Origin: Oscillospiraceae bacterium
Lineage (GTDB): Bacteria > Bacillota > Clostridia > Oscillospirales > Oscillospiraceae
Assembly (NCBI GenBank): GCA_015068455.1
Contig: SVKO01000007.1
Coordinates: forward strand, 62,001-126,000
Direction of reading: 5' to 3'
DNA: 64,000 bases
Positions within the stretch are counted from its first letter, which is position 1; every line of letters starts with the position of its first letter. Shown one piece after another: positions 30,416 through 62,993 of this stretch. The notes under the pieces were generated by a model, which was not told the DNA's origin, made no database searches, and saw nothing but the letters and a program-made list of their open reading frames with translations. The position numbers and the translations under genes are program-made.

Positions 30416-32239
30416 ATGGATCATCAGTCGAATATCAGAAATATCGCCATCATCGCCCACGTTGACCACGGCAAAACCACCCTCGTTGATGAAATGCTCA
30501 AGCAGGGCGGCATCTACCGCGAACATCAAACCGTGGTGGAGCGCGTGATGGACTCCGGCGATCTCGAGCGCGAGCGCGGCATCACCATTCTGGCAAAAAA
30601 CACTTCGGTGTACTATAAAGATACCAAGATCAACATCGTCGATACCCCGGGCCACGCCGATTTCGGCGGCGAGGTGGAACGCATCCTCAAGATGGTCAAC
30701 GGCGTACTGCTGCTGGTGGACGCCGCCGAGGGCCCCATGCCCCAGACCCGTTTTGTGCTGCAGAAGGCCCTGGAGCTGGGCCACAAGGTCATCGTGGTCA
30801 TCAACAAGATCGACCGCCTCGACGCCCGCATCGAGCAGGTGATGGAGGAAGTTCTGGAGCTGCTGCTGGACCTCAACGCCACCGACGAGCAGTTCGACTC
30901 CCCCACCATTTTCTGCTCCGCCCGGCAGGGCATCGCCGCCTACGGTCCCACGGACGTGGGCATCGACCTGACGCCCCTGTTCGAGACCATCATCAATTAT
31001 ATCCCCGCGCCCGAGGGCGACGAGAACGCGCCCCTGCAGGTGCTGGTTTCCTCCATCGACTACAATGAATACGTCGGCCGCATCGGCATCGGCCGCGTTG
31101 AGCGGGGCGTGATCCGTCAGAACCAGGAGGTCGCCATCTGCGACTACCACGACCCCGAGCACCTGGAAAAGGGCAAGATCGCCGCGCTGTACTCCTTCGA
31201 GGGCCTGGAGCGCAAGCCCATCACCGAGGCCTTTGCCGGCGAGATCGTCGCCTTTTCCGGCATGGCGGATCTCACCATCGGCCGCACCATCTGCGCCCCG
31301 GACTGCCCGGAGCCCCTGCCCTTCGTGAAGATCTCCGATCCCACCATCGAGATGACCTTCTCCGTCAACGACAGCCCCTTCGCCGGCCAGGAAGGCAAAT
31401 ACGTCACCTCACGCAACCTGCGCGACCGCCTGGAGCGCGAGCTTCTCAAGGACGTGTCCCTGCACGTCACCGAGCAGGGCACCGACGCCTTCAACGTCGC
31501 CGGCCGCGGCGAGATGCATCTGTCGATCCTCATTGAAACCATGCGCCGCGAAGGCTACGAATTCCAGGTCTCCACGCCCCGCGTGCTCACCAAGACCATC
31601 GACGGCAAGCTCTGCGAGCCCGTGGAGCGGATGCTGGCGGACGTGCCGGAGTGCTACATGGGCGCGGTCATCGAGAAGATCGGCCAGCGCAAGGGCGACC
31701 TGCTCTCCATGACTCCCGTGGGCGGCCGCTACCGGCTGGAATTCCTGGTTCCCTCCCGGGGCCTGTTCGGCTACCGCAACGAATTCCTCACCGATACCCG
31801 CGGCGAGGGCATCATGTCCTCGGTGCTGGATTCCTACGCCCCCATGAAGGGTGAGATCGCCCGGCGCAAGTGCGGCTCGCTGATCGCCTTTGAATCCGGC
31901 GAGACCACCGCCTACGGGCTGGGCGGCGTGCAGGACCGCGGCACCCTGTTCCTGGCGCCCGGCGTCCGGGTGTACGCGGGCATGATCGTAGGCGCCTGCA
32001 ACCGCAATGAAGACATGGCCGTAAACATCTGCAAGAAAAAGCAGCTGACCAACATGCGCGCCGCCGGCTCCGACGAGGCCATCCGCCTCTCTCCCCCGCG
32101 GGTGCTGTCGCTGGAGCAGTGCCTGGAGTACCTGTCCGACGACGAACTCCTGGAGGTCACCCCCCAGAGCCTGCGCATGCGCAAGCGCATTCTCGACCAT
32201 TCCCTGCGCATGCGGGAGGTCATGAAAAACAAAAACTGA
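30416..32239 (+). CDS. typA: Ribosome-associated GTPase TypA/BipA
   Basis: A 607-residue translational GTPase related to EF-G and LepA. The N-terminal G domain shows G1 AHVDHGKTT, the switch region ERERGITI, G3 DTPGHADFGGEV and G4 NKIDR. Domains similar to EF-G II, III and V follow, and the family-specific C-terminal domain contains TPVGGRYRLEFLVPSRGLFG. It binds the ribosome and supports 50S assembly and stress growth in bacteria studied. Length equals the family norm. Monocistronic: its own promoter and terminator. Confidence 0.96.
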   Translation: MDHQSNIRNIAIIAHVDHGKTTLVDEMLKQGGIYREHQTVVERVMDSGDLERERGITILAKNTSVYYKDTKINIVDTPGHADFGGEVERILKMVNGVLLLVDAAEGPMPQTRFVLQKALELGHKVIVVINKIDRLDARIEQVMEEVLELLLDLNATDEQFDSPTIFCSARQGIAAYGPTDVGIDLTPLFETIINYIPAPEGDENAPLQVLVSSIDYNEYVGRIGIGRVERGVIRQNQEVAICDYHDPEHLEKGKIAALYSFEGLERKPITEAFAGEIVAFSGMADLTIGRTICAPDCPEPLPFVKISDPTIEMTFSVNDSPFAGQEGKYVTSRNLRDRLERELLKDVSLHVTEQGTDAFNVAGRGEMHLSILIETMRREGYEFQVSTPRVLTKTIDGKLCEPVERMLADVPECYMGAVIEKIGQRKGDLLSMTPVGGRYRLEFLVPSRGLFGYRNEFLTDTRGEGIMSSVLDSYAPMKGEIARRKCGSLIAFESGETTAYGLGGVQDRGTLFLAPGVRVYAGMIVGACNRNEDMAVNICKKKQLTNMRAAGSDEAIRLSPPRVLSLEQCLEYLSDDELLEVTPQSLRMRKRILDHSLRMREVMKNKN

Positions 32240-32247
32240 TCATTTTG

Positions 32248-32282
32248 CCCGGCGCGGAAGCAATTCCGCGCCGGGTTCTTTC
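32248..32282 (+). terminator. Terminator after typA
   Basis: CCCGGCGCGGAA / TTCCGCGCCGGG stem (32248-32275) followed by TTCTTTCTG. Confidence 0.8.
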
Positions 32283-32320
32283 TGTTTCTGCCAAAAAGGT
32301 TCAAAATTCGCCGGGAGGCA

Positions 32321-32349
32321 TTGACAATCCCCCGCTTTCTTGTTAAAAT
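32321..32349 (+). promoter_or_regulatory. Strong promoter of the potABCD leader
   Basis: Consensus TTGACA (32321-32326) and TAAAAT (32344-32349), 17-base spacing. It lies about 350 bases before potA, and nothing promoter-like is seen closer to potA. Confidence 0.8.
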
Positions 32350-32355
32350 AAGTCG

Positions 32356-32679
32356 TCTCAATTGAGCGGCGGCCCATCGTGCCGCTCGAAGCCAGATATA
32401 CGACCGCCGGCTCCGCCGGCCAAGGCCAGACGGACAGCCGGGTCGAATGCCGATTGCCGCGGGTGCGGCGGCAGCGCAAGCTGCCATTATTGATTGAGCT
32501 CTGTGCTCAAATTTTATAAGTTGGTCACTATAAACCAATGCTGCTCCGCGGCAAACTTGTGAAATGGTCAATAAGAGTCGCTATATCTGTGCTCATGCTC
32601 TTCAACCGCCAGGATCATAGGGGGAAAATCGCCCTCTGTAGTTGCAAGTGATACGCGCGCAGCGTATCACTATTTTTTT
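32356..32679 (+). ncRNA. Structured leader RNA upstream of potA (candidate riboswitch or attenuator)
   Basis: About 324 nt between a consensus promoter and an intrinsic terminator, without a convincing reading frame. Visible local hairpins are GAGCGGC/GCCGCTC near the 5' end, GCCGGC-TCC-GCCGGC, GGCAGC-GCAA-GCTGCC (a GNRA-type loop), TTGAGC-TCTGT-GCTCAA (32494-32510), and TTGGT/ACCAA (from 32521). Two related segments start GCCAGA (near 32391) and GGCCAGACGG (near 32424). The final terminator ends 18 bases before the potA start, so potA expression must depend on read-through. I could not match it to TPP, FMN, SAM, purine, lysine, glycine, cobalamin, c-di-GMP, ykkC or ZTP riboswitch signatures, nor to 6S, tmRNA or RNase P RNA. 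Confidence 0.6.
32648..32679 (+). terminator. Intrinsic terminator just ahead of potA (attenuator)
   Basis: Perfect 9-bp stem GTGATACGC / GCGTATCAC with loop GCGCA (32648-32670) and the tail TATTTTTTT. The potA Shine-Dalgarno GGGGG begins only 7 bases after the T-run. Confidence 0.88.
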
Positions 32680-32697
32680 GTCAGTGGGGGTCATGCC

Positions 32698-33815
<1,118 letters not shown>

Positions 33816-33819
<4 letters not shown>

Positions 33820-34706
33820 AAAAAGTGATCGTTCCTCCGCAGCGGGTCCAGCCGCATGAGCGGGTGGCGCCGGTACCGTACATGGTCTGGGCGGTGCTGT
33901 TCACCGTGGTGCCCCTGCTGTTCATTGCCTATTACGCCCTTACCGACAACCAGTTTCACTTCACCTTCGACAATATCACCCGCTTCTTCACCGCCACCTC
34001 CACCATGGAGGCCGCGGACGGGACCCAGAAGGTGATCCACACCTATCTGCTGATCTTCTGGCGCAGCTTCAAGCTGGCCCTGATCTCCACAGCCGTATGC
34101 CTGCTCATGGGCTATCCCATCGCCTATATCATCGCCCGGGCAAGTCCGAAGGCCCAGTCCACCATGATCACCCTCATCATGATCCCCATGTGGATGAACT
34201 TCCTGATCCGGACCTACGCCTGGATGACCATCCTGCAGGACACCGGCATCCTCAACGGCATCCTCTCCGCCCTGCACCTGGGCACGGTGAAAATCATCGG
34301 CACCGAGGGGGCCGTGGTGGTGGGCATGGTCTATGACTTCCTGCCCTATATGATCCTGCCCATCTACTCCGTCATGGCCAAGATGGACACCCGCCTTCTG
34401 GAGGCCGCCCGGGATCTGGGCTGCAACTCCCTGGGCGTGCTGCGGCGGGTCATCTTCCCCCTGAGCCTGCCCGGCGTGTTCTCCGGCATCACCATGGTGC
34501 TGGTGCCCTCCATCAGCACCTTCTATATCTCGCAAAAACTCGGCAACGGCAAGTTCTATCTCATCGGCGACGCCATCGAGGGCCAGTACGTGGCGAACAA
34601 TCTCCATTTCGCCGCCGCCATCGCCTTTATCCTGATGGTCGCCCTGCTGCTGTCCATGGCCGTCTTCCAGCGGCTGGCCAACCGCCGCAGCTACGGAGGT
34701 GCCTGA
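33816..34706 (+). CDS. potB: Polyamine ABC transporter permease PotB
   Basis: A 296-residue inner-membrane permease with six helices of the binding-protein-dependent transport family. The EAA loop that contacts PotA is visible as [20 protein letters not shown]. It pairs with the PotC part of the next gene to form the channel. It begins inside the potA stop (ATGA) and ends directly before the next start. Confidence 0.94.
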
Positions 34707-34707
34707 G

Positions 34708-36681
34708 ATGAAGAAAATGTCGAAAATCTATACCGCGCTGATCTTCGCCTTTCTGTTCGCGCCCATCGTCATCCTGCTGGTGTTCTCCTTCAATGCCAGC
34801 AAGAGCCTTTCGGTGTTCTCCGGCTTCTCCTTCAAGTGGTACCGGGAGCTGCTGCGCGACGGCGAGACCCTCATCAGCCTGAAAAACACCCTGATCCTGG
34901 CCTTCAGCGCCTCGATCATCTCCACCGTCATGGGCACCGCCGCCGCCGTGGGCATGCACAAGCTGCGCAATCGCTACCTGCGCGCCGCCATGGATTCCGT
35001 GACCAACATCCCCATGATCAATCCGGACATCATCACCGGTATCTCCCTGATGCTGATGTTCGTGTTCGTGGGCTCCCGTCTGGGCCGGGCCACCAGCCTG
35101 GGCTTCGGCACCATGCTGATCGCCCACATCACCTTCTGCCTGCCCTACGTGATCCTGCAGGTGCTGCCCAAGCTGCAGCAGATGGACAAATCCCTGCCCG
35201 AGGCCGCCATGGATCTGGGCTGCACCCCCATGCGGGCCTTCCTGCGCGCCGAGCTGCCGGAGATCCTGCCCGGCATCATCACCGGCATGATCATGGCCTT
35301 CACCCTGTCGCTGGACGACTTCGTCATCAGCTACTTCACCCAGGGCAACAATTTCCAGACCCTGCCCATCCGCATCTACTCCATGACGAAGAAGACCGTC
35401 ACGCCGAAGATGTACGCCCTGGCCACCTTGATCTTCTTCACGATCCTGGCCCTGCTGCTGGCCTCCAACTTCATCGGCGACGAGGACACGCGCCGCCTGC
35501 GTGAGGAGCGCCAGAAGCGCCGCGGCAAGGCGGCCCAGCCGAAGAAGCGCCGCCGCGAGCTCAGCGAGAAAACCAAGCGCCGCATCGTTTACAGCGCGCT
35601 GGGCGTGGCCGCCGCGGGCGCCCTGCTCTTCGCCCTGATCCCGCCCCAGCCCCAGGTGCTGAACGTCTATAACTGGGGCGAGTATATCTCCGACGGCTCC
35701 GAGGACAGCCTGGATACCATCGCCGCCTTTGAGGACTGGTACCAGGAGACCTACGGCCAGCGCATCCAGGTCAACTACGCCACCTTCACCAGCAATGAGG
35801 ACATGTACGCCAAGCTCAAGTCCGGCGCTGTCAGCTACGACGTGATCATCCCCTCGGACTATATGATCGCCCGTATGCGCGAGGAAAACATGCTCCTGCC
35901 GCTGGACTACGGCAACATCCCCAACTACGAAAACATCCCCGACAATTTCCGTAATCTCTACTACGACGAGAACAACGAATACACCGTGCCCTATACCTAC
36001 GGCGTGGTGGGCGTCATCTACAACGCCAACGCCGTGGACGAGGCCGACGCGGAGGGCTGGGATCTGCTCTGGAACAAGAAATATGCCGGCCAGATCCTGC
36101 AGTTCAACAACAACCGTGACGCCTTCGGCACCGCCATGTATAAGCTGGGCATCGACGTCAACACTGCGGACAAGGCTGACTGGGACCGCGCCCTGGCCGA
36201 GCTTAAGGATCAGAACCCCCTGGTCAAGAGCTATGTCATGGACGAGATCTACAACATGATGGAGTCCGGCGAGGCCGCCGCGGCCGCCTATTATGCCGGC
36301 GACTACTTCACCATGCTCGACGCCCAGGCGGACAATGTGGATCTGCAGTTCTACTATCCCGAACGCACCAACTATTTCGTCGACGCCATGTGCATCCCCT
36401 CCTGCTGCCAGAGCAAGGAGCTGGCGGAGATCTTCATCAACTATATGCTCTCCGAGGAGCCCGCCGTGGCCAACGCCGAATATATCTACTACGCCTCCCC
36501 CAACCGGCTGGTGTATGAGAATGAGGACTATATCGACGAAATGGGTGAGGAAGCCATGGACATCCTCTACCAGGGACAGGACAAATTCCAGGAGAACTAC
36601 AACGCCTACGCCTACCGCAGTCTCGATCCGGAAACATTGGATTATGTCAACTCCCTGTGGGAGAATCTCAAGATCAACTGA
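34708..36681 (+). CDS. potCD: Fused permease PotC and polyamine-binding protein PotD
   Basis: A 657-residue fusion. Residues 1-about 257 are the PotC permease with six helices and an EAA loop (LPEAAMDLGCTPMRAFLRAE). A very basic linker (about 258-290) leads to an extra membrane helix (about 291-313). Residues about 316-657 are the PotD solute-binding domain (LNVYNWGEYISDGSEDSLDT to the YRSLDPE end). The added helix would place PotD outside the cell while keeping it tied to the channel, replacing the usual lipoprotein anchor. ATG 34708 follows GGAGG; the in-frame GTG 34699 lies on that RBS. Confidence 0.94.
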   Translation: MKKMSKIYTALIFAFLFAPIVILLVFSFNASKSLSVFSGFSFKWYRELLRDGETLISLKNTLILAFSASIISTVMGTAAAVGMHKLRNRYLRAAMDSVTNIPMINPDIITGISLMLMFVFVGSRLGRATSLGFGTMLIAHITFCLPYVILQVLPKLQQMDKSLPEAAMDLGCTPMRAFLRAELPEILPGIITGMIMAFTLSLDDFVISYFTQGNNFQTLPIRIYSMTKKTVTPKMYALATLIFFTILALLLASNFIGDEDTRRLREERQKRRGKAAQPKKRRRELSEKTKRRIVYSALGVAAAGALLFALIPPQPQVLNVYNWGEYISDGSEDSLDTIAAFEDWYQETYGQRIQVNYATFTSNEDMYAKLKSGAVSYDVIIPSDYMIARMREENMLLPLDYGNIPNYENIPDNFRNLYYDENNEYTVPYTYGVVGVIYNANAVDEADAEGWDLLWNKKYAGQILQFNNNRDAFGTAMYKLGIDVNTADKADWDRALAELKDQNPLVKSYVMDEIYNMMESGEAAAAAYYAGDYFTMLDAQADNVDLQFYYPERTNYFVDAMCIPSCCQSKELAEIFINYMLSEEPAVANAEYIYYASPNRLVYENEDYIDEMGEEAMDILYQGQDKFQENYNAYAYRSLDPETLDYVNSLWENLKIN

Positions 36682-60719: not shown

Positions 60720-62993
60720 TCAGGGTACTTCAATTTCCACGTTGGGATCCGGCTGCGGCTCGGGTTCCGGCTCGGGCTGCGGCTCGGGTTCCGGCTGCGG
60801 CTCGGGTTCCGGCTCGGGCTGCGGCTCGGGCTGCGGCTCGGGCTGCGGCTCAGGCTGGGGCTCAGGCTGGGGCTCGGGCTCGGGCGGCTTCTCCTCGGGA
60901 TTGTCCTCGTCGGGCTTCTTTTCTTCCTCGGGCTTCTCCTCCTCCTTGGGCTTGTGCGTGTGGTAATAGCTCGAGGCTTCACGCTCCACGGAGATTTCGT
61001 TGCCGTCGGCGTCGATCTTATGCTTGTAACTGATGACGCTGGTGCCGTCGGCGGTACGGGAGGTGACGTCATAGGTCATCTTGATGGTGTAATTCTTGGT
61101 CTCGGTGCCCCAAAGCGCGATGTGGACATAGCCGTCAGACACGCTGGCGTCGATACGGATCGGATAGCCGGTGTTGTTGCGGAACTGGAAGTCCAGCGCG
61201 CCCCAGTAGATGGTGGCGTCCATACCCAGCGGCACATAGGAGACCTCAAAGTAATGGCAGGAACGCTCCACGATCTCCAGATCGGCCAGCAGGGCACAGA
61301 GGTAGATGGTGGAAGCCACCTGGCAGCAGCCGCCGCCGAGCTCGTCGACGGTATCGCCGCTGACGTAGACCTGGGCCTCTCTGAAGCCGCGGGCCGCCGT
61401 ACGCTCGCCCACCACACGGTTGAAGGAGAAGACCTCGCCGTCGTTGATGATGGTGCCGTCGATCTGCTCGCAGGCCAGCTCCAGGTTGACGGTGCGGTTG
61501 TAGATGGCGGTATGGGGGGAATCATAGGAAGCGAGCTCGTCCTTGAACAGGTATTCCTGCAGGTCGTTCACAGTGACCTCGGGCTCCAGCTCCACGAAAG
61601 CGATCTCCAGCTGTTCGCCTTCCTTCGCCGCGTCGAACTGCTTCTGCACTTCCTCCACGTCAAAGCCGTAGCCGGGGATCTCCTTTTCGAGGGTGGACGT
61701 CTCCTGGTTGTAGGCGGCGTTGACGGGCTTCTTGCAGTTTTCATCGAAAACCTTCTGGAAATCCGGCAGATCCGGCTGGGCCTCGGTGAATTGGAACTCA
61801 ATGGGGTTGAAGTCCGCGGCGACCAATGCGCGGGACACTTCGGCGGAAAGCGCGTCGGAATCCAGACTGCGGGAGTGTTCGCCCTTGGAGATGAGCATGA
61901 ATCTGCGATGAGGAACGGTCTCGGACGCCTCTTCGCCCTCCTCGTCCTCGTCCTCGGTCTCTTCCTCCTCCGGGGTCTGCGTGCCGTCCGCGTCCTTTTC
62001 GATCCGCTCTTCAAAGCGGATCTGCGTCTGCTTGAGCTCCGCGAACACCTCGTCGGCCTTCCGGTCGATCAGGTCGCGCACCGCGTCCTGATTATAGGTG
62101 AAGCACTCAGACAGGTCGATCTCCACCGGCTCCTCGGGAACCTTGGTGATGCCGGGCACCTTCACAAGGCCCATGACGCGGCCGTAATTCCACGCCTCGT
62201 CCACGGCGCGCTCCACGTCCAGATGCACATTGCTGACGTCGGGCGGGATGACCAGGGTGTCATCGGGCAGCTGGACAGTCAGGTCGCTGGACTGATAAAC
62301 GTCGTTGGTGGCGGCGTTGACCTTCTCCACGGCGGCAGCCTTGGTCAGGCCTCCCACCGGGACGCCGGCGACGTAGAGATTGTCCACAATGATGCCGCCG
62401 TCGAGCACGAACAGTCCCGCCGCCGCGATGGCCAGCACCAGGATCACCGCCAGCACCGCGTACAGGGCGGTCATGGCGCGCTTTTTCTTTTTCTTCTTTG
62501 CCATTTCATCCACCGGCTCCGGGCCGTTTTTCGTCTGCTGGGCCTTGGCGCTCTGAAGCTCCGCCGCAGGGATCGCCGGGAGCGGGCCGGTTTCCTGCTC
62601 GCCCTTTTTCATCTTGGCTTTTTTGCCCTTCGGCTTTTTGGCCTCTTCCTTTTTCTCCGCGCCCTTGTCCGCCTGCTTTCCGGCGCTCTTTTCGGCCTTT
62701 TTCTCCGCCTTCTTCTCGGCTTTCTTCTCGGCCTTTTTCTCCGCCGTCTGCACGGGCGCTTCGGCCGGGACTGCCGGGGCTGCAGGCACCGCCGCCGCCG
62801 TCTGACCGAACTTCACTTCCGGCGCTTCGACCGGGGCTTCGGACGCCGCGGCGTCGGCATTGATGCGGGCAAGCTCTTCGTCCATGATGGCGTCGAACAG
62901 GGCGTCCTTCCGGGCTTTCTCCTGGGCGGCCAGATCGTCGCCTGTCTGCGGCTGTCCGGTCAGCTCCTCCGTAAAGCGTTCGAGGGCCTCCAT
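60720..62993 (-). CDS. VanW-family surface protein with Pro-Glu repeat tail
   Basis: At least 757 residues. The N-terminus is cytoplasmic, Lys/Ala/Glu-rich with EKKA repeats (about 85-105), followed by a membrane helix (about 172-196). Two peptidoglycan-binding-type domains (GGLTKAAAVEKVNAATNDVY, then EIPGYGFDVEEVQKQFDAA) are followed by the VanW domain (about 505-640) with FSFNRVVGERTAARGF, GGGCCQVASTIYLCALLADL and NNTGYPIRI, and a G5-like segment. The tail is a (PEPQ)n-type repeat. Role in wall binding is likely; VanW function is unsettled. The true start may lie 25-27 codons upstream at a non-ATG codon, since coding-like sequence and GGGAGGGG precede the annotated ATG. Confidence 0.85.
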   Translation of the reverse strand: MEALERFTEELTGQPQTGDDLAAQEKARKDALFDAIMDEELARINADAAASEAPVEAPEVKFGQTAAAVPAAPAVPAEAPVQTAEKKAEKKAEKKAEKKAEKSAGKQADKGAEKKEEAKKPKGKKAKMKKGEQETGPLPAIPAAELQSAKAQQTKNGPEPVDEMAKKKKKKRAMTALYAVLAVILVLAIAAAGLFVLDGGIIVDNLYVAGVPVGGLTKAAAVEKVNAATNDVYQSSDLTVQLPDDTLVIPPDVSNVHLDVERAVDEAWNYGRVMGLVKVPGITKVPEEPVEIDLSECFTYNQDAVRDLIDRKADEVFAELKQTQIRFEERIEKDADGTQTPEEEETEDEDEEGEEASETVPHRRFMLISKGEHSRSLDSDALSAEVSRALVAADFNPIEFQFTEAQPDLPDFQKVFDENCKKPVNAAYNQETSTLEKEIPGYGFDVEEVQKQFDAAKEGEQLEIAFVELEPEVTVNDLQEYLFKDELASYDSPHTAIYNRTVNLELACEQIDGTIINDGEVFSFNRVVGERTAARGFREAQVYVSGDTVDELGGGCCQVASTIYLCALLADLEIVERSCHYFEVSYVPLGMDATIYWGALDFQFRNNTGYPIRIDASVSDGYVHIALWGTETKNYTIKMTYDVTSRTADGTSVISYKHKIDADGNEISVEREASSYYHTHKPKEEEKPEEEKKPDEDNPEEKPPEPEPQPEPQPEPQPEPQPEPQPEPEPEPQPEPEPQPEPEPEPQPDPNVEIEVP

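Follow-up and report, generated by a model that had tools for sequence, protein, structure and literature searches.

Riboswitches that respond to polyamines have long been expected. A class with biochemical proof is the spermidine riboswitch that Salvail et al. described in 2023, a SAM-I variant with a four-stem aptamer that has 13 known examples, none of them before potABCD, and its authors state that further classes surely remain (PMC10853860). Structured RNAs beside polyamine-related genes, the odc1 and potE motifs, have also been described (Brewer et al., 2021; PMC8632094). A further RNA is known from Streptococcus pneumoniae, where F59, the founder of the Rfam family RF02440, was reported as an sRNA region between SP0915 and SP0916 (PMC3395615), and where tiling arrays identified SN20, a transcript of ∼318 nt at SP0915-SP0916 with a promoter and a predicted terminator (PMC2887815). 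SP_0916 is a polyamine-pathway decarboxylase, and pneumococcal polyamine genes affect the capsule (PMC7531197). In the literature searched, with most subscription journals outside its coverage, there was nothing under SpF59, 'ldcC RNA', RF02440 or 'ldcC motif', no function had been assigned to the RNA, and the source of the Rfam alias 'ldcC RNA' was not found; ldcC and potA go unmentioned in Stav 2019, Brewer 2021 and Narunsky 2024. The alias itself shows that the RNA has received someone's attention before.

The locus considered here lies in a stretch of 64,000 nucleotides from an Oscillospiraceae bacterium (positions 62,001 to 126,000 of contig SVKO01000007.1), referred to as the window, and all features described are on its + strand. 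A sigma-A-type promoter at 32321-32349 (TTGACA-17-TAAAAT, with an extended -10 (TG)) matches the consensus at 11 of 12 positions, as against 0.4 promoter-like sites expected in shuffled sequence, and predicts a transcription start near 32356. Between this promoter and a terminator ahead of potA runs a structured non-coding leader of ∼290 nt; the minimum free energy of 32356-32697 is -147.4 kcal/mol, which corresponds to z = -5.4 relative to dinucleotide shuffles. The minimum free energy fold places a variable hairpin, P0, near the predicted 5' end (32364-32387), and its sequence is not conserved. The intrinsic terminator (32647-32679) consists of a 10-bp stem, AGTGATACGC-GCGCA-GCGTATCACT (32647-32671), and a U-run (32673-32679), and the GGGGG Shine-Dalgarno sequence of potA (32686-32690) begins 6 bases past the latter, with the potA ATG at 32698. 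A promoter scan gave no promoter-like site on the + strand between terminator and potA. The first-pass annotation had described just this arrangement, that is, a consensus promoter, ∼300 nt of hairpin-rich leader and a terminator immediately before the potA Shine-Dalgarno sequence with no promoter in between, and its description is borne out. The upstream gene, typA, is closed by a strong terminator of 13 pairs at 32247-32276, so that transcription of typA is unlikely to run on into the leader.

Downstream of the leader, potA (32698-33819) encodes a spermidine/putrescine ABC transporter ATP-binding protein that scores above cut-off with NCBIfam models NF043075 and TIGR01187. It is followed by a potB permease gene (33816-34706), for which PotB is the best NCBIfam match, under its curated cut-off, and by a potC-potD fusion (34699-36681) in which the PotC and PotD models, also under their curated cut-offs, match different halves of a single ORF (PotC permease domain, 4-263; PotD substrate-binding domain, 317-603). 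The window's genome contains one copy of the RNA and one potA, and a search of this 99.7% complete genome with two families, SpeD (PF02675) and SpeE (PF01564), gave no match. These observations fit a dependence on uptake, and the source bacterium probably relies on imported polyamines.

Comparison of the leader with Rfam identified RF02440 (SpF59 sRNA / ldcC RNA) at 32401-32453, covering model positions 1-54 with 64.8 bits against a gathering cut-off of 37.2 and E = 2e-9 for the whole window. The leader had been called an orphan and said to match none of the common riboswitch signatures. With this match the latter statement no longer stands, and 'orphan' has to be given up for the sequence of 32401-32453 and retained for the function. 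The family is no housekeeping RNA; its first sighting was ahead of SP_0916 in the pneumococcus. In a search of 32200-32760 that went up to E = 1, the only further families were anti-hemB and isrD, at chance level and below their cut-offs, and over the homologous RNAs no family besides RF02440 was reported. A T-box leader was rejected because that search gave no match to the family, as was a SAM-I aptamer, from which the covarying fold also differs. A leader-peptide attenuator was likewise rejected, there being no conserved translated ORF (a Shine-Dalgarno sequence, a start and at least 6 codons are found in only 40 of 169 leaders).

The Rfam match covers only part of what is conserved. Homologues were gathered from relatives, from the class, from the phylum and from named genomes, and in all 177 judgeable loci (52 + 117 + 8, one locus, L182, being left out) a second conserved domain lies directly 3' of the Rfam match, the loci not being mutually independent and the named-genome set having been drawn with an exact 30-base pattern. 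The conserved letters of this 3' domain are UUAUUGAUUGAG..CUC..UUUUAUAAGUUGG..ACUUGUGAAAcggUCAAUAA. A covariance model built for the complete core (R1; 197 positions) scores 142.3 bits over 32399-32601 of the window and raises scores strongly elsewhere, for instance from 38.5 bits with RF02440 to 169.9 bits in one genome (G044). It also picks up a genome (G053) that RF02440 misses, together with the full-length homologues L198 and L223-L225. The last three, from one family of Bacilli with small genomes, go unreported by Rfam's own model even at E 0.01; their gene order and protein suggest that the hosts are Streptococcus. Judged from these comparisons, the 54-nt model of Rfam 15 is a fragment, and the whole RNA is a structure of ∼200 nt in which both domains are enclosed by a closing helix, P1.

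The 5' strand of P1, CCAGAUAUA (32392-32400), pairs with its 3' strand, UAUAUCUG (32582-32589). In 74 of 82 relatives this upstream/downstream pairing is better than that of shuffles (p = 2e-13), and a reversed-strand control was null. Within P1, the 5' domain (32401-32453), equivalent to RF02440, comprises P2 (CGACC/GGUCG), P3 and P4 (GGC/GCC), all three of which covary. P4 is the conserved hairpin GGCCAGACGGACAGCC (32424-32439), and separate lineages have it flipped, with GCC/GGC in place of GGC/GCC. The two related GCCAGA segments noted at first pass prove to be unlike things, one being the P1 5' strand and the other P4. The spacer between GCCGA and TTATTGA has a median length of 34 nt in potA-type leaders and of 17-18 nt in the speD, ldc and cansdh types, and an extra hairpin in it, P5a (32456-32469), is accordingly typical of the potA type. 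The extra inter-domain hairpin (32454-32469 in the window) is also seen in a few Ruminococcus speD leaders. The next hairpin, P5 (GGCAGC/GCUGCC, 32470-32485), shows both-side changes at all six of its pairs in alignment A2, a set of 76 diverse sequences. The 3' domain (32487-32574), which is absent from Rfam and is defined by the R1 model, by its presence in homologues and by pair counts, is closed by P6, in which UUAUUGAUU (32487-32495) pairs with GGUCAAUAA (32566-32574). Inside it are P7 (32496-32508), P9, P10 (32539-32553) and P8, the last formed by AUAAGUU (32516-32522) and AACUUGU (32554-32560).

Scoring of the structure from P2 to P11 in A2 (45 pairs, with P10 omitted because MAFFT misaligned it) showed that 96.0% of cells are paired, as against 26-47% when the partners are slid by 1-3 columns. 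Both-side changes occur at 23 pairs, where shuffles give 8.8, and covariation scores 0.184, with slid versions reaching at most 0.062. The covariation that the first-pass annotation had asked about is thus present. P8 and P6 are highly conserved and so vary mostly on one side, and a loop-to-strand pairing of ACGG with CCGA is invariant. P11 (GAGU/ACUC, beside P6) and P1 both want the same GACUCU strand, and both score well.

The genes behind the RNA point to a single area of metabolism. Polyamine genes lie directly downstream in 162 of the 163 homologous loci with a called downstream gene, the first gene being a carboxynorspermidine-synthase family member in 56, speD in 46, potA in 44, an Orn/Lys/Arg decarboxylase in 16 and another gene in one. 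In loci that begin with speD, a decarboxylase gene usually comes next, and behind it speE, speB and the gene for carboxynorspermidine synthase. Moreover, when R1 was searched blind to neighbours, the same polyamine genes adjoined 42 of 43 loci, some of them missed by Rfam's model. The contexts are those of the polyamine importer and of two routes by which spermidine-type polyamines can alternatively be made. In relatives, too, the leader stands before potA, a point that the first-pass annotation had asked to be checked. The homologues from named genomes are from Paenibacillus, Bacillus, Neobacillus, Ruminococcus and other Clostridia. The sole copy without a known polyamine gene behind it (L008/L197, in genome G023) precedes a peptidase-like lipoprotein gene, and two copies (L068 and L081) are on contigs labelled Spirochaetes and Synergistaceae MAG, each a single MAG, which may reflect transfer or misbinning.

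Two strands of the leader have alternative partners. The first, strand B (32548-32559), comprises the P10 3' arm and ACUUG (32555-32559), and it can pair either inside the fold, in P8 and P10, or with the terminator 5' arm. The second, strand C (32645-32658), comprises CAAGU (32645-32649) and the following bases, and is both the antiterminator partner and the terminator 5' arm. Since strand B is held by P8/P10 and strand C is the terminator arm, the three pairings are mutually exclusive, as is usual for an OFF switch. A terminator below -10 kcal/mol lies downstream in 164 of the 168 leaders with a detected hairpin, and the complement of the invariant ACUUG occurs in the 5' arm of 126 of these 164 terminators, where 8.4% would be expected from shuffled arms; the simple complement is absent in 34-38 of the 164, and some of these pair in another register. 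The species-variable bases past the ACUUG core pair as well, with a gain of 3.8 kcal/mol over shuffled flanks. This pairing is better than that of shuffled flanks in 59 of 64 cases (p = 4e-11; reversed-flank control not significant). The result also holds for each leader type by itself, in 26 of 28 (potA), 18 of 19 (speD), 13 of 14 (ldc) and 20 of 24 (cansdh). An earlier cross-pairing test of strand B against other species' arms was discarded: the cognate arm was better in 77 of 98 cases, but the control with the 3' arm shifted just as far, an effect of base composition, and the composition-preserving flank shuffle replaced it. Taken across relatives, these pairings indicate that the conserved fold and the antiterminator compete for one strand.

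The first-pass annotation had drawn a weak antiterminator from ACTTG and CAAGT. The two segments are where it put them; the word 'weak' does not hold, as the pairing is conserved in relatives and that of the window is of middling rank and ordinary strength among them. Equilibrium folding of the window sequence favours the terminator state (-145.0 kcal/mol vs -133.6 kcal/mol with the antiterminator enforced). Read-through would therefore need kinetic control, through co-transcriptional folding, or some effect that the folding model leaves out.

In the mechanism proposed here, transcription would begin at the 32321-32349 promoter and the first ∼240 nt would fold into one closed structure, with P1 around both domains. 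This closed fold would keep the strand ..GCGGCAAACUUG (32548-32559) within the 3' domain by means of P8 and P10, the CAAGU strand would then be free, and the terminator would form and stop transcription ahead of potA. If the fold were not stabilised, the ACUUG strand would instead pair with the terminator 5' arm as an antiterminator, and the polymerase would continue into potABCD. Comparison between relatives establishes the conserved covarying fold, the conserved terminator and antiterminator and the association with polyamine genes, and these together support the hypothesis, already raised at first pass, that the leader responds to polyamines and controls potABCD through termination. The leader also has the hallmarks of a riboswitch, namely a covarying, aptamer-like fold in front of genes of one pathway and, by comparative pairing, a mutually exclusive terminator and antiterminator, the latter feature being weaker in the window. 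From sequence, then, we consider it likely that the leader acts in cis and switches polyamine uptake OFF at the level of transcription. The stabilising signal, which would be bound directly by the RNA, would most likely be a polyamine; spermidine is placed first because both pathways (SpeD/SpeE and carboxyspermidine/carboxynorspermidine) end in it and because PotABCD takes it as a substrate.

The switch could be real and yet respond to a neighbour in the pathway, such as agmatine, arginine, lysine, S-adenosylmethionine, methylthioadenosine or aspartate semialdehyde. The decarboxylase-first, agmatinase and SpeD contexts are one step from such compounds, and precursors are often sensed by variant riboswitches; however, the widest common denominator of the contexts, which include potABCD without SpeD/SpeE matches and the carboxynorspermidine route, is the polyamine product rather than any single precursor, and a neighbour ligand is accordingly unlikely. 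We consider it quite unlikely that a protein or some other factor acting in trans, either an RNA-binding antiterminator or the ribosome, reads the leader, with no small molecule bound directly. The RNA is large, and protein-controlled leaders also use terminator/antiterminator pairs, but the long stretches of conserved loop and junction sequence, retained in a closed fold across several classes, favour an aptamer. In addition, the few possible leader peptides are at scattered places and are not conserved, and neither the T-box nor any other protein-bound leader family matches. There is a small chance that a switch built in this way works in the ON direction, the ligand favouring the antiterminator and expression rising. 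The alternative pairings do not by themselves fix the direction, but the antiterminator strand is held within the conserved fold (P8/P10), so that stabilising the fold frees the terminator. OFF is also the direction of feedback logic for genes of synthesis and uptake, and that of the spermidine riboswitch already published (PMC10853860). Finally, a trans-acting sRNA whose position beside polyamine genes is incidental, as implied by the Rfam type 'Gene; sRNA' and by the pneumococcal reports in which F59/SN20 is a separate sRNA that has a promoter of its own and a predicted terminator, is hardly credible, given that the terminated leader of an OFF switch would look identical, that polyamine genes follow the RNA, in line with it, in four gene contexts, and that fold and terminator arm co-evolve.

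Returning to the reading of the leader as a polyamine-responsive OFF switch, we incline, at slightly better than an even chance, towards the view that RF02440 and the uncatalogued 3' domain together make up a second spermidine (polyamine) riboswitch class, ∼200 nt in length, unrelated in structure to the SAM-I variant, common in Bacillota and controlling both potABCD uptake and two routes of spermidine synthesis. Its reach extends to Paenibacillus, Neobacillus and Ruminococcus, with the founding example in Streptococcus pneumoniae. What Rfam lists as an sRNA would in this way become a testable switch, for which a full-length model and the exact strands to mutate are supplied here.

With respect to the RNAs described previously, a 53-nt segment in the 5' part of the window RNA matches RF02440 over the model's full length, whereas the model itself has 54 positions, leaves P4 unpaired, is typed 'Gene; sRNA' and includes neither P1 nor the 3' domain, and neither terminator nor antiterminator. 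The pneumococcal transcript known as SN20, F59 or srn235 has, at ∼318 nt, the length expected for the whole leader (PMC2887815, PMC3395615), but has been described only as an sRNA, with an FMN-like function guessed in one paper. The odc1 and potE motifs accompany genes other than those of the window RNA and are set apart by their description, Rfam giving no further family over the leader. The Salvail riboswitch and the window RNA are alike in preceding polyamine-synthesis genes, which in the former include ldcC, speB, speD and speE, and the former is a proven transcriptional OFF switch that acts by an intrinsic terminator (PMC10853860), the mode of action proposed from sequence for the window RNA. 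In contrast to that biochemically proven class, which is rare, the RNA described here has a different fold, is far more widespread and almost exclusively polyamine-linked, and has potABCD and carboxynorspermidine synthase as its main contexts.
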